Origin: Phorcus lineatus
Taxonomy: Eukaryota > Mollusca > Gastropoda > Trochida > Trochidae
Assembly: GCA_921293015.1 (NCBI GenBank)
Contig: OV121084.1
Span: 19,224,960 to 19,288,959 of the forward strand
DNA: 64,000 nt
Direction of reading: 5' to 3'
The notes beneath the pieces were generated by a model. The model saw only the letters and a program-made list of their open reading frames with translations. It was not told where the DNA came from and searched no databases. A program made the position numbers and the translations under genes. This document shows, in pieces, positions 4,509 through 55,580 of this stretch. The first letter of the stretch is position 1. Every line of letters starts with the position of its first letter.

Positions 4509-4607
<99 letters not shown>

Positions 4608-33763: not shown

Positions 33764-33903
33764 GTTTATCAATGCAAGGCGAAGGATAGTCCAACCAATG
33801 ATCGACCAATCAAATAGAGCAGGCAAGTCCTCCCAGCTGGTAACTGTGTTCAAAAATCGGAGGCGTAAGTCGTCATCAGCCGATTCACTCGGCCTCTCTC
33901 CAG
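33764..33903 (+). CDS. Meis: Meis exon: end of homeodomain helix 3, with alternative GC and GT donors
   Basis: After the acceptor TGTCTGTTGCAG, the first G completes Trp48. FINARRRIVQPMIDQSNRA follows, i.e. the rest of recognition helix 3 with Ile50, Asn51 and the Arg cluster, then the conserved post-homeodomain segment. Two donors both leave one base (G) of a Gly codon: GCAG|GCAAGT ends the exon at 33822, and CCAG|GTAAAC ends it at 33903. Both join in frame to 35699. The longer form adds 27 residues beginning GKSSQLVTVFKNRRRKSSSA and continuing DSLGLSP. This insert has a second Arg/Lys cluster that could act as a nuclear localisation or DNA-contact extension. Related GKSP-LVTVFK-like extensions occur in MEIS-family isoforms as far as I recall. 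If neither donor is used, the frame runs to TAA at 33972-33974. Confidence 0.94.
33823..33828 (+). other. GC-type 5' splice site (GCAAGT)
   Basis: AGCAG|GCAAGT matches the strict context seen at functional GC-AG introns (AG before, AAGT after). It gives phase 1, as required by the exon at 35699, where G+GT makes Gly. The short isoform needs it because no GT donor lies at this position. Support is from sequence only. Confidence 0.6.
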
Positions 33904-33909
33904 GTAAAC
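33904..33909 (+). other. GT-type 5' splice site (GTAAAC), alternative long form
   Basis: CTCTCTCCAG|GTAAAC is a fair canonical donor 81 nt downstream of the GC donor, in the same phase. The intervening 81 nt are open and encode a conserved-looking basic segment, which argues for real use. Confidence 0.65.
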
Positions 33910-34190
33910 TCGGGAAGCTTTGCTGGCTTCCGGTGGGCACGTACATTGTATATACATGCTCCCAGCAATACTAAGAGAGAGTAGAAAACAATGGAGAGAG
34001 GGAACAACCTTGACCTGTGGCCTTGACCTCAATGTGGTGAAGGTCACTACCCTGACCCCTGACCCAAACCCCAAAATCGATGATGACTTACTTTTCCAAG
34101 AACATGTGCATGCTCTAAAAACATAGATGTAGTCGTGTATTCTGTATTTATTATTAATCTCTTTCAAAACTCTTTAATTGCATGCCTCTT

Positions 34191-34204
34191 CTGTCAATTG
34201 ACAG
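34191..34204. promoter_or_regulatory. Perfect palindrome of two MEIS half-sites
   Basis: CTGTCAATTGACAG is fully self-complementary and consists of TGACAG in inverted orientation around an AT centre. TGACAG is the core site of MEIS, PREP and TGIF homeodomains, so a dimeric TALE contact is possible. It is 287 bp downstream of the GT donor of the helix 3 exon. Confidence 0.45.
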
Positions 34205-34462
34205 TTTCTTTGCTTTCTGATCACCAGCACATCAATCATGCTCTCTGTTAAAGATGAAATGACGACATAATAGAGGATGATAGTTATCGCGTCTATATCA
34301 CTATTAACGTGACATCTTCATGTCGGACTAATCAGGATGAAACATGAGATCCATTCATTAATATCCGTCAATAATCTCACAAGCAAGTCTTCTATAAAGT
34401 AAAAAATACTTCAAGAGACTTTTTTATCATCATCTGTAAATCATGCATGACATTTATTTGCT

Positions 34463-34493
34463 TGTTGTTAATTTCTTAATGAAATTAACAACA
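34463..34493. repeat. Perfect hairpin, 13-bp stem, 5-nt loop
   Basis: TGTTGTTAATTTC (34463-34475) pairs exactly with GAAATTAACAACA (34481-34493) around TTAAT. An outer TTGCTTG / CAAGCAA pair (34458-34464 and 34502-34508) could extend it past a bulge. The stem is too short for a typical microRNA precursor. It may be a structured intronic element or two inverted TTAAT homeodomain sites. Confidence 0.75.
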
Positions 34494-34740
34494 TAAGCTG
34501 TCAAGCAAGCCAATCTAAATTCCTTTTTATCTCAGTGACAGTATTGCATATTGAACCATAAATCGCATATCTGGTGGGATGTACCTTTCACCCAATATGA
34601 AATTGACGCATGCACATTGCACAAACTGCTAATGAAGTGTAGCTGTACGACGTGGCGTGTTGAGCGCTATTGACATGCTTCTGTATTCCTCCTTCCACTG
34701 CTTCTCCCTCCTTCCTTCTCGCACTTCTTTCTCTCTCTAG

Positions 34741-34898
34741 TATATAATGCATCCACTTTCAGTATTCAATACACAGCCAGAGAAGTATTTGCCTCTGACA
34801 GACTGTTACGGACATGTGACGATGGCAGTATTTACAGAAAATACTCAATAAATCTTCCTCCTTCAGTGATGATGTTTATTCCATTGCTAAAAGTGTAA
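34741..34898 (+). other. Possible alternative 3' exon (or TATA element) in the Meis intron
   Basis: A pyrimidine tract of about 50 nt ends in CTCTCTCTAG at 34740, an excellent acceptor. Joined in phase 1 to either upstream donor, the sequence stays open for 52 codons, including the split one, to TAA at 34896-34898. An AATAAA lies inside, at 34847-34852. The polyadenylation signal precedes the stop, so the two readings partly conflict. The same start is TATATAA, which could instead be a core promoter. The predicted peptide resembles no Meis sequence known to me. Confidence 0.15.
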
Positions 34899-35698
34899 TT
34901 AATCCATCGGGAATTGAAACGAGGCAAATATTTCTCTGAATGTGCATCTTGTTTTAACTTGATTATTTAATTATCTCAATCTTTCTGTTTGATGTTTGAT
35001 TCTCTGACTTTTTCAATGGTGGGGTAAATTACGATAATCAAATTTGCGTGTTATGTGATGATACAAGCTCCGAGTGGTCTACTGCCGATCATACGCATCA
35101 TCAATGGAGCTCAGGGTGTGTTCGAAATGGCACCCTGGAATAGCTCCCTCGCTCAACCACTGAGCCATGCACATCCAAAATATCATTTTAAACTGGCACT
35201 TATTATGTTCTTTTCACTTCTTATAATGGTTAAAAAGAATCTTTCATTTTGAGGAAGAGAAATTTTAGATGAATTGAATTCAAATATTTACTATCACGTA
35301 GGATATGAAAAGTAGTCATATCAATACATAACACACAAATTCTTGGATTAAGAAATTAAATGATTGACCCTTCAAATGCTGATCTAATATTCTGGAAATT
35401 TATCTTGAAGCTGTGATCTTCTCCCACAATTTATAACATATCAAGTGAATTTTCAGACTTTTTTAGAAATTATTTTATTCAGCGGCTGAAGTGTTGATAA
35501 GAATTAAACATTTTTAAGTTTGAAATTTTTCAAACATACCTTTATTTCTTACCCCACTTGCATGACTGAAAACCTGTCAGCTTTTTCTTTATTTGCACCT
35601 TTTGATTTATTCTCTGTATAGACAGTGCATGTCTGCATGTTACCTCAATAACCCATCTCCACATGTCCAGTGAGTAATGGTGCTTTGGTCTATTGCAG

Positions 35699-35773
35699 GT
35701 CCGGGCGCCCATGCAGCCTACAACCCGGAGGCCGGGATGGGATACCTGGATAACCAGCACATGCAGATGGGCA
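35699..35773 (+). CDS. Meis: Meis exon: proximal C-terminal tail
   Basis: This 75-nt exon lies between a TATTGCAG acceptor and a GTAAGT donor (35774). Two bases complete the Gly codon started by either upstream donor, 24 codons follow, and the last base (A) starts an Arg codon finished at 36076-36077. The peptide PGAHAAYNPEAGMGYLDNQH then MQMG matches the post-homeodomain pattern of MEIS proteins (YNP-G, MG-, D-QH-). Failure to use the donor would read 18 codons to TAA at 35827-35829 and give a short alternative C-terminus. Phase agreement at both ends makes the exon secure. Confidence 0.9.
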
Positions 35774-36075: not shown

Positions 36076-36413
36076 GACTGCAGGGGATGCATGGTGCGGA
36101 CATGTATGACCCGATGAAGGCTGGCTACTCCCACCTGGATGGCTCCCAGCGCTATGACATGTTGGGGATGCACGGCATGCAAAGGACTGATATGTACGCT
36201 CCCCCTGTCACTGGGTCCTATGCACAAATGTCCCAGTTTAGTCCTCCTGTCCATTCTCAAGCAATGCTGATTCCCGGACACCCACACCATATGATGATGG
36301 GTCATGGCGCCACCGGAATGTCACACCACGGAATGTCCGCCACCCAGAGCCCCCCACTGCATGCCAGCATGGACAGTATGGGGCAGCATATACAGGACAT
36401 CCATGCCGGATAA
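36076..36413 (+). CDS. Meis: Meis terminal coding exon: C-terminal domain and stop
   Basis: The exon begins GA (completing Arg), then encodes 111 residues and TAA at 36411-36413. The tail is rich in Met, His, Gly, Ser and Pro, with repeated MHG and DMY words, and contains LIPGHPHHMMMGHG. It ends MGQHIQDIHAG. The HPHH segment and the -DIHA end correspond to the long (B-type) C-terminus of vertebrate MEIS1, known as a transcription-activating region. There is no membrane or enzymatic feature, and the region is likely disordered. The opposite-strand 81-codon ORF over the same bases is a shadow. The high GC here relative to flanks is normal for a coding exon. Confidence 0.95.
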
Positions 36414-49150: not shown

Positions 49151-49970
49151 GATAATTCTGATTAACCAATATGTAATTCTGGTGATAATTCTGATTATAG
49201 AATATGTAATTCTGGTGACGATTCTGATTAAAGCATATGTAATTCTGGTGAGGATTCTGATTAAACCATATGTAATTCTGGTGAGGATTCTGATTAAACC
49301 ATATGTAATTCTGGTGATGATTCTGATTAAACCATATGTAATTCTGGTGATGATTCTGATTAAACCATATGTAATTCTGGTGAGGATTCTGATTTAACCA
49401 TATGTAATTCTGATGATGATTCTGATTAAACCATTTGTAATTCTGGTGATGATTCTGATTAAACCATATGTAATTCTGGTGATGTTTCCGATTAAACCAT
49501 ATGTAATTCTGGTGAGGATTCTGATTAAACCATTTGTAATTCTGGTGATGATTCTGATTAAACCATATGTAATTCTGGTGATGTTTCCGATTAAACCATA
49601 TGTAATTCTGGTGATGATTCTGATTTAACCATATGTAATTCTGGTGAGGATTCTGATTAACCGATATGTACTTCTAGGGATCATTCTGATTAAAGAATAT
49701 GTAATTCTGGTGAGGATTCTGATTAAACCATATGTAATTCTTGTGATGTTTCTGATTAACCAATATGAAAGTCTGGTGATGATTCTGATTAAACCATATG
49801 TAATTCTGGTGAGGATTCTGATTAAACCATATGTAATTCTTGTGATGTTTCTGATTAACCAATATGAAAGTCTGGTGATGATTCTGATTAAACCATATGT
49901 AATTCTGGTGATGATTCTGATTAAACCATATGTAATTCTTGTGATGATTCTGATTAAACCATATGTAATA
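49151..49970. repeat. Minisatellite, 33-bp unit, about 25 copies, with higher-order structure
   Basis: The unit ATTCTGATTAAACCATATGT then AATTCTGGTGATG repeats at 33 bp. Variants (GAGG, GATGTTTCC, TTTCTGATTAACCAATATGAA) recur in blocks, making 99-bp and longer higher-order units, for example the AACCAATATGAAAGTCTGG units near 49756 and 49855. Because 33 is divisible by three, + frames read ILIKPYVILVR and minus frames read NYIWFNQNHHQ repeats. Single A-to-T changes (ATTTAACC) introduce stops, so the ORFs are by-products. Confidence 0.96.
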
Positions 49971-52191: not shown

Positions 52192-53015
<824 letters not shown>

Positions 53016-55580
53016 AGAGGGAGTGAGAAAGAGAGATATACACAAGACGACACCGTGAGATATAGAGAGAAAGGGTGAAAGTCAGATACAGAGAAAGTGA
53101 GAACTTCGAAAGAAAAAATAAAAGGACAAGCCAGAAAGAGAGATGGTCAGGGGATAATTAAACAAAATATAGAGAAAGGGAGAGGGATAGGGTAAACGAA
53201 GTAGAGACTGAGGAATATTTTAAGACAGATAAATAGATATATAGATAAAGTAAAAGAGAGACACAGACGTATATCTTCTAGAGGCGTGTAATATAGAAGT
53301 GAATGAATGTGAATGAATTGTTTATTAACGTGTCTCGCATAAAATTAAATTGAGTAAATACATATGGATATTCCAGATAAATGAATTATGCTGAGTTCCA
53401 ATGGGCCGAATAGGCACGGTGTGAATCAGTATTGAATTAATAAAGGCATATAAGCAACATCAACTGAGTATGGTATACAGAGGGTATAAATGTTGATAAG
53501 GTAATTACTTGTTAAAGCTAGTCATATATTTAAACCTTTGAGACGATAAAACATATAGAAAGGGGATAGAGAGAGTGAGAGAAGTACAAAGAGGCCGAGT
53601 GGGAGAAAGAAACAGAGAGTACGGGTGTGTAGATATAATATATGTCTGTGTGTAGAGACAAGATGCATGCATTACTCTACACATTTCCCTATGTAACTAT
53701 CATTTTTATTATTATATCAACTTCCCTATTAGAACTATTTGTGTCTCTAGTCACTCTTTAGTAGACAAATACGGTACGCGGTGTTTGTAAAGAAGGACAT
53801 GTTACTGTCTTATAACTTGTTTCTTGTAAAAAAAAACATCATTGAGAAAATACAGTGTAAGTTAACAGTATAGATAAAATGAAAGCTAGACAAACTATGT
53901 CACACATTTGATTCTTTCGTTTGACCCAGAAGCACACCCTCTCTTGTTCGAGGCCATTGCCGGACGTCCCCTCTCCCCCACCTCACTGGTTAGTCGTTGG
54001 ATACCTCAGTAAACCTTTCAATAACGTCACATACTATTAGGATAGGTTGTATATTGATTGTTCTTAAACGGGTTGGATATGACAAGAGTTTGCAGGACAG
54101 GTGACAGCATTGTGACCCTCGAATACATGTTCTGGCAACTTCATCAAATGATTATTTTCATATCCTGTATTCATAACAACCGTATTCATAAACATTTATC
54201 CAAAAGGGACATACATTGAGCATAACTGTCACCAGCGACCAGATTGGAATTGACAACAATGACATTTATCTTTTTTTTATTCTTAATCACAAAATGTATT
54301 TCATTCCTACAAAGGTTACGTCATGGGGAGATATCAGCTTAGGAAGATATGTAGGGGGAGAATGAACGATAGTATATGGACAAAATTTGAACATATTTTC
54401 ATGTTCCAAGTCATCTGATCAAATGGTATTTTCAAGAGACTCCTGCTTAGTTATTTAAGTAATAAGTGTGTTTAAATTTATTTGCTTTAAAATAATAATC
54501 GATTGATAAACGATTTGTTGAATGTTGCATGACATTTTGACATGCTGTCACATTGGTTTGCAATGTTATGTCTGCTTCACTGTTGACCTAACTTGGTCGC
54601 GTCGATTTTTAAACGTACAGTGTTATTGACCTATTTATTTTTAATATGTACAACCATCAATACTTCACACTATGCAACTAATAATCTTCTATATTTATTG
54701 CGCATATTACTGATCGACTGCCGTGTTGAAATTTGAATTCCTTTGATAACACCCATCCGAAAAAAAGGTTTGGTTCTTCAAAATGTCACTTCTTTAATGT
54801 CATCATGTCTGTATTGTCTTCAACATCAGTTTACTTGTAAGGAGTGAATACACTATCCGTTCTCCATGGCGTCTTCATTGAATAGTACCTCAGTACCAAC
54901 CCTGCCCTAGAAGGACGATCTCGTAACGCTAACATATATATACTGAGTACCATGCCATAAGTAATACCTTCATTTTAAGAAAAGTTCGGACATCTTGACC
55001 CATGGAACAAGACGACGTCGCTTTTGAAATCGTACCATTGAACTTAATATATACACGACAAAATAAGTAAAGGACAATCCAATTCAAATTTTGGTGATAT
55101 TATTTAGTTGATAAACGATCCTAACGATGCTCAAATACTGAATATTTGGGTGGTCCTTATTGAGTAGGCGTCTCTACGTATTTTAAAACAATTGAAATGG
55201 GTTTTAAAAGATGCTCCTTTGTATAGACATATACACCCTGTATGTCCTTAACCAACTAAACATTCTCTTTTACATACTAGGAGTTGAGATTAGGGGGAAA
55301 GGGATTGATTTAATGGTTCTATCGGTACCCTCCCATTGAAAGAAGGACCTTCTCCCATTGATAATATTGTCGAGTGAGTAAAACGTCACTTTTATCAGCG
55401 ACATCAAAACTTTTCACTCTGTAGCTACAGCAAGGTAGAACTAAACGTGCTCTGGTTGGGTACGATGTCCAGTGTATCGACGAGGATAGACTTTATCTCC
55501 AATACGCCTTGTATACGGAGAGGACACCTTTATAACCTCTAGCTTAATAAAAGATTGCGACTCGAATCACTTGCAGTTTG
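53016..55580. other. Intergenic; purine-rich tail, then AT-rich
   Basis: 53016-53270 and 53560-53640 remain AG-rich, as decayed relatives of the neighbouring array. The remainder is AT-rich to mixed, with no ORF of 60 codons or more between 53.1 and 59.0 kb. No gene is seen. Confidence 0.55.

Follow-up and report, generated by a model that had tools for sequence, protein, structure and literature searches.

A putative frame-preserving GC/GT alternative 5' splice site pair, perhaps tuned by RBFOX proteins, at the homeodomain exon of an animal Meis gene

Proteins of the Meis family serve Hox and PBC proteins as cofactors. Within this family, a published case of nested 5' splice sites is exon 8 of Drosophila homothorax (hth), in which two nested in-frame donors produce a short difference in the protein, as at the locus described here: a 3-bp micro-exon is nested in a 48-bp exon, the arrangement is lineage-specific, and the isoforms have specific functions in vivo (PMC7392893). 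Flies in which either of the two nested-donor isoforms is knocked down die at the pupal stage (PMC7392893), so that differences of this kind can matter. In the ING4 gene there is a weak GC donor with a GT donor nearby, and the choice between them decides whether the protein contains a nuclear localization signal (PMC7242645). A GC donor is also present in intron 10 of C. elegans let-2, where it is needed for developmentally regulated splicing (PMC2490688, PMC7242645). Other Meis-family genes are alternatively spliced near or within the homeodomain as well: tissue-specific splicing of exons 7a/7b of C. elegans unc-62 alters the homeodomain (PMC3585033), and the vertebrate genes MEIS1 and MEIS2 show splicing diversity downstream of it (PMC6796342, PMC3157405).

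The stretch of DNA that we analyzed (hereafter the window) is 64 kb long, has an overall G+C content of 36%, and carries the 3' part of a Meis/hth gene on its + strand. Four coding exons were recognized. The part of the homeodomain present here is encoded by a 77-nt exon (4530..4606), which consists of 25 codons plus the first two bases of a Trp codon and is followed by the donor TTG|GTAAGT (intron from 4607), and by a 59-nt exon (33764..33822 in its short form), which encodes FINARRRIVQPMIDQSNRA plus a single G and contains the homeodomain end. Downstream of these are a 75-nt exon (35699..35773; acceptor TTGCAG|GT) and the last coding exon (36076..36413), which closes with ...HIQDIHAG followed by a stop codon. 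The first-pass annotation had called the gene Meis, and several results bear this out. In a search with an 87-residue query, the homeodomain part (match 1-45) was identical at 45/45 residues to the Meis2/Meis1 PDB chain 3k2a, Pfam assigned it to Homeobox_KN (4.8e-18), it is of the Meis-type TALE class, and the lengths of its two exons, 77 and 59 nt, are those of insect hth exons 12 and 13 in 7/7 species. Exact matches to short Meis protein motifs for the N-terminal MEIS/MH domain and the start of the homeodomain were not found in the window, and the corresponding exons probably lie upstream of it.

Within the window no Rfam family reached its gathering threshold, and ARAGORN detected no tRNA, including in the region 35070-35180, which by eye resembles part of a tRNA-derived repeat. 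Elsewhere, the window contains a 33-bp tandem repeat of about 25 copies with 90% matches (49151-49969), in which several reading frames stay open, and a GA-rich tandem array with periods of 62 and 122 bp (52284-53018). A run of TGACC-like half-sites is seen by eye at 34000-34075, in the intron just past the donors described below; they may represent either a simple repeat or sites of nuclear-receptor type.

Two donors on the + strand lie at the end of the 59-nt exon. The upstream one, CAG|GCAAGT (33823..33828; read over 33820-33828, intron from 33823), is a GC donor, and the downstream one, CAG|GTAAAC (33904..33909; read over 33901-33909, intron from 33904), is a GT donor that would produce a long form of the exon. 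Each leaves a single G, which the GT at 35699 completes to a Gly codon, and both joins (33822-35699 and 33903-35699) give Gly followed by PGAHAAYNPE; the predicted short product reads ...IDQSNRAGPGAHAAYNPE, and the predicted long product reads ...IDQSNRAGKSSQLVTVFKNRRRKSSSADSLGLSPGPGAHAAYNPE. The 81 nt between the donors (33823..33903) are open in the Meis frame and encode GKSSQLVTVFKNRRRKSSSADSLGLSP, a basic and serine-rich extension of 27 residues that starts directly after the homeodomain, from ...IDQSNRA on, and has a KNRRRK cluster followed by SSS. At the level of the sequence, this is an alternative 5' splice site pair with two donors, one acceptor and a preserved frame, and the intron that starts at the GC site has the U2-type GC-AG pattern (CAG|GCAAGT ... 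TTGCAG|), its donor being otherwise near-perfect in consensus.

Re-reading of the sites and joins thus reproduced the coordinates, the phases, the Gly restoration at 35699, and the open, basic and serine-rich 81 nt without a stop that had been given in the first-pass annotation, and the layout of nested GC and GT donors is real and was correctly read. Among the 1997 GC dinucleotides of the + strand, only the GC donor itself (1/1997) reached its matrix score. Both isoform proteins that the first-pass annotation predicted are right, but a third in-phase donor, GGC|GTAAGT (33865..33870, + strand), which would add 14 residues, was not mentioned there, and neither were the out-of-phase donors at 33840 (CTG|GTAACT) and 33933 (CCG|GTGGGC).

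Which of the two exon ends is the older can be approached by comparison with insects. According to Table 1 of PMC7392893, hth exons 12 and 13 measure 77 and 59 bp, respectively, in all 7 tabulated insects, and the exon 13 donor is GT in 7/7 species. Because the GC site delimits an exon of exactly this length, it would, judged from insects, be the ancestral end of the 59-nt exon, and the GC at 33823 would most simply have arisen by a GT-to-GC change.

To what extent the 81 nt resemble coding sequence was examined with a codon score trained on the remaining exons of the gene (184 codons). The score was ordinary: among 11,977 open intronic windows 22% scored as well, and among 1,430 windows matched for G+C 62% did; by positional base composition, 9.4% of the open intronic windows scored as high. 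Since the training set is very small, these codon statistics are weak evidence against a coding extension. The G+C content is 0.54 in the extension, 0.48 in the 81 nt that follow and 0.49 in the 106 nt after those (33904-34090), and so remains raised past the GT donor 33904.

The recognition helix of homeodomains has the pattern WFxNRR, and the resemblance of KNRRRK to it raised the idea of a second partial homeodomain in the extension. This was rejected: a 30-residue piece matched no Pfam family at E = 10, a search whose filters drop most weak matches, and what there is appears to be a resemblance. A structural RNA switch at the donors is likewise not proposed, given that 188/200 shuffled sequences fold at least as well as the region over the donors. 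Searches for relatives gave 29 pattern matches in viral contigs and 241 in prokaryotic genome contigs, with 0 confirmed in either; these are non-animal collections, and the outcome has no bearing on conservation.

How often a comparable arrangement arises by chance was determined within the window with a hand-written donor matrix, which was also used for the donor scores. The nonamer of the GC site, CAGGCAAGT, is present in 1 copy on the + strand and 0 copies on the - strand. A score at least as high as that of 33904 is reached by 51/3677 GT sites on the + strand. An in-phase GT donor at least as good as 33904, reached without a stop within 81 nt, follows 0.74% (+) and 0.69% (-) of non-exonic positions, or 0.84% (+) and 0.90% (-) when the distance is extended to 150 nt. 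When only positions are considered at which the next 81 nt have a G+C content of at least 0.5, such a donor follows 64/3806 (+) and 83/3795 (-) of them, that is, 1.7-2.2%. The exon masks used for these rates covered 4531-4607 and the region from 36085, and the offsets from the true exons (4530-4606 and from 36076) fall within their 20-nt padding. An in-phase open GT donor within 81 nt is thus unusual for any one place, yet chance instances exist in any genome, and the rate has to be read in the knowledge that the first-pass annotation was looking for such places.

Predicted strength gives no clear winner among the donors, because the matrix, the energy of the duplex with the 5' end of U1 and the count of hydrogen bonds with U1 disagree. 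The matrix favours 33933 (9.12) over 33904 (8.02) and the GC site (7.08). Ranked by duplex energy, the order is 33904 (-8.3 kcal/mol), 33933 (-7.5), the GC site (-7.1), 33865 (-6.1) and 33840 (-5.0), and an energy as good as that of 33904 is found at 48/3677 GT sites. The hydrogen bond count puts the GC site at the top with 20, followed by 33904 and 33840 with 17 each, 33933 with 16 and 33865 with 15.

The intron downstream of the donors (33904-35698; 1795 nt) contains a cluster of UGCAUG, a motif recognized by vertebrate and fly RBFOX proteins (PMC8742874); a link between regulated splicing and clustered RBFOX motifs has been described (PMC12435732). On its + strand the window has 25 copies, 6 of which are in this intron: three downstream of the donors at 34107, 34179 and 34444 (34107..34449), and three at 35559, 35626 and 35634 (35559..35639), 65-140 nt upstream of the acceptor of the 75-nt exon. 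Two further copies, at 36088 and 36358, are located in the last coding exon. Judged from the rest of the window, 0.55 copies would be expected in the intron (P 2.4e-5), or 0.43 with a microsatellite set aside (P 6e-6), and none of 2000 dinucleotide shuffles of the intron (0/2000) reached 6. Windows of equal length elsewhere (starting at or before 32300, or at or after 36401, with the microsatellite left out) contained at most 2. Of all the hexamers in the intron UGCAUG has the top rank, as it has in a hand-written list of 18 protein-binding motifs. The motif was first noticed by eye and counted afterwards; with a correction for the 18 motifs its P is near 4e-4, and the value becomes borderline once all distinct hexamers of the intron are allowed for.

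The cluster of the hexamer is real, but the strand controls are mixed, because the complementary pentamer CATGC (8 vs 1.36 expected, P 9e-5) is enriched as much as GCATG (7 vs 1.42, P 7e-4). The reverse complement CATGCA occurs 3 times in the intron, 0.41 being expected (P 0.008), and 105/2000 shuffles reach 3. Part of the cluster may thus be due to GCATG/CATGC being locally abundant on both strands.

Taken together, the locus probably represents a frame-preserving GC/GT alternative 5' splice site pair in an animal Meis gene, perhaps tuned by RBFOX, and we infer that both donors are likely used. In the mechanism that we propose, the ancestral donor of the 59-nt homeodomain exon would have turned into GC. 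The C at +2 is a mismatch that should weaken U1 pairing at the old donor, and because of this the downstream CAG|GTAAAC, 81 nt away, could then compete with it. Use of the GC site would give the ancestral, short protein; use of the GT site would add, directly after the homeodomain, 27 residues with the basic KNRRRK cluster and then the serines. The balance between the donors might be tuned by RBFOX-family proteins acting on the UGCAUG motifs of the intron, which are candidate sites. Because the extension carries KNRRRK followed by SSS, an effect of the ING4 kind on nuclear import, or one on the affinity for DNA, is the natural guess and the most likely consequence for the protein; phosphorylation of the serines might gate it. 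The first-pass annotation had spoken of the "DNA-contact edge", which is conjecture since no solved Meis chain extends past ...QSNRA: among the six distinct sequences of Meis1/Meis2 PDB chains, five end before the IDQSNRA point and the longest ends exactly there. Its reading of the site as a GC/GT alternative donor holds in kind, as nested donors are described in the family (PMC7392893) and GC-AG introns are over-represented among alternative 5' splice sites, which in human protein-coding genes concern 389 GC-AG (31.6%) vs 10,500 GT-AG introns (10.1%) (PMC7242645).

Two readings would leave a single donor in use. If the GT-to-GC change had been fixed neutrally in a strong context and splicing used the GC donor only, the downstream GT and the open frame would be coincidental. 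Among animal introns, 0.98% are of the GC-AG type (PMC7072748, Table 1), the idea that such changes are fixed neutrally in strong contexts has been put forward (PMC2490688), the coding statistics of the extension are ordinary, and a comparable in-phase open donor is met by chance at 0.7-2.2% of positions. That rate is nevertheless low, and the UGCAUG cluster suggests regulated splicing near the intron 33904-35698; we therefore regard exclusive use of the GC donor as rather unlikely. Conversely, 33904 could be constitutive, with the GC site a dead ancestral donor and the 27 residues an insertion fixed in the lineage. By duplex energy 33904 is indeed the better match to U1, but the hydrogen bond count favours the GC site, whose nonamer is unique in the window although decay would be expected of a dead site, and CAG|GCAAGT keeps all other consensus bases, as working GC donors do (PMC2490688). 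That only the long form is made is accordingly improbable.

It is also conceivable that both donors belong to a loose family of sites, in phase at 33823, 33865 and 33904 and out of phase at 33840 and 33933, from which noisy splice ends result. Five donor-like sites do lie within 111 nt, and 33933 is comparable to 33904 by matrix, duplex energy and hydrogen bonds, so that only its frame speaks against it: from either out-of-phase donor (33840 or 33933) a shifted tail is predicted in place of the C-terminus, with a stop in the last coding exon. The remaining members are poorer candidates, 33865 having a C at -1 and 33840 pairing weakly with U1 (-5.0 kcal/mol), and we hold noisy splicing to be unlikely. 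A different question is which event the UGCAUG motifs would serve. As the 75-nt exon can be skipped in frame, the cluster may act on that exon instead of on donor choice, or on both events. Skipping to 36076 keeps the frame (RAG|LQGMHGADM), from the short form as from the long one, three of the motifs are located 65-140 nt upstream of this exon (35699-35773), and exon skipping downstream of the homeodomain is known in vertebrate MEIS1/MEIS2 (PMC3157405, PMC6796342). The other three of the six motifs, in contrast, are near the donors. Control of 75-nt exon skipping, and perhaps of inclusion of the 59-nt exon, rather than of donor choice is a possibility to be reckoned with, albeit not the expected one, and it is compatible with the GC/GT donor pair that we favour.

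Searches of the literature text for VFKNRRRK, QSNRAGKS, VTVFKN and SNRAGK gave no match, figures being outside searchable text. Among the matches listed, judged mostly by title or the start of the abstract, we recognized no published description of the extended isoform, and most alignments are in figures; this is weak evidence that the isoform is absent from print. A 2011 study of Meis/hth gene structures by Irimia et al. reportedly found that Meis genes have often gained splice sites in their 3' half, and it could already describe the extended isoform.

In MEIS2, a 7-residue variant occurs at the same junction as the extension and differs from it in sequence. The +/-KTS forms of WT1 also come from tandem donors that add residues beside DNA-binding units, as here, but there three residues are added between zinc fingers and the donors are GT. 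If both forms exist at the present locus, a single base where a deeply conserved exon ends, the C at 33824, would help to set the ratio of two DNA-binding cofactors, and the locus would offer a clean test of how a GC donor gains regulation and of RBFOX action on Hox cofactors. In its boldest version, which we think quite unlikely as a whole, the GT-to-GC change would have made an ancient constitutive junction of the homeodomain exon into an RBFOX-tuned switch, and the new basic KNRRRK arm of the long form, attached to the TALE homeodomain at its end and resembling recognition-helix and import sequences of other homeodomains, would alter, depending on the tissue, how strongly a Hox cofactor binds DNA or how it enters the nucleus.

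Precedents thus exist in hth for donors nested in frame (PMC7392893) and in ING4 for a GC/GT choice that toggles a nuclear localization signal (PMC7242645), and the added interest of the present locus is in the ancestral position proposed for the GC donor and in the UGCAUG cluster. In exon 8 of Drosophila hth, the alternative stretch falls in the region from the MH domain to the homeodomain, with GTAAGT as the nested donor (PMC7392893); the stretch here comes after the homeodomain, and one of its donors has GC. ING4 is another gene with another protein, and the present case is a sequence-level prediction. The GC donor of let-2 intron 10 governs exon usage, not the choice between two donors of one exon (PMC2490688, PMC7242645). 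The unc-62 variants arise from alternative exons and concern the N-terminal part of the homeodomain (PMC3585033), and those of vertebrate MEIS1/MEIS2 arise from exon skipping or inclusion (PMC6796342, PMC3157405), unlike the nested donors described here, which lie just past the C-terminal end of the homeodomain.
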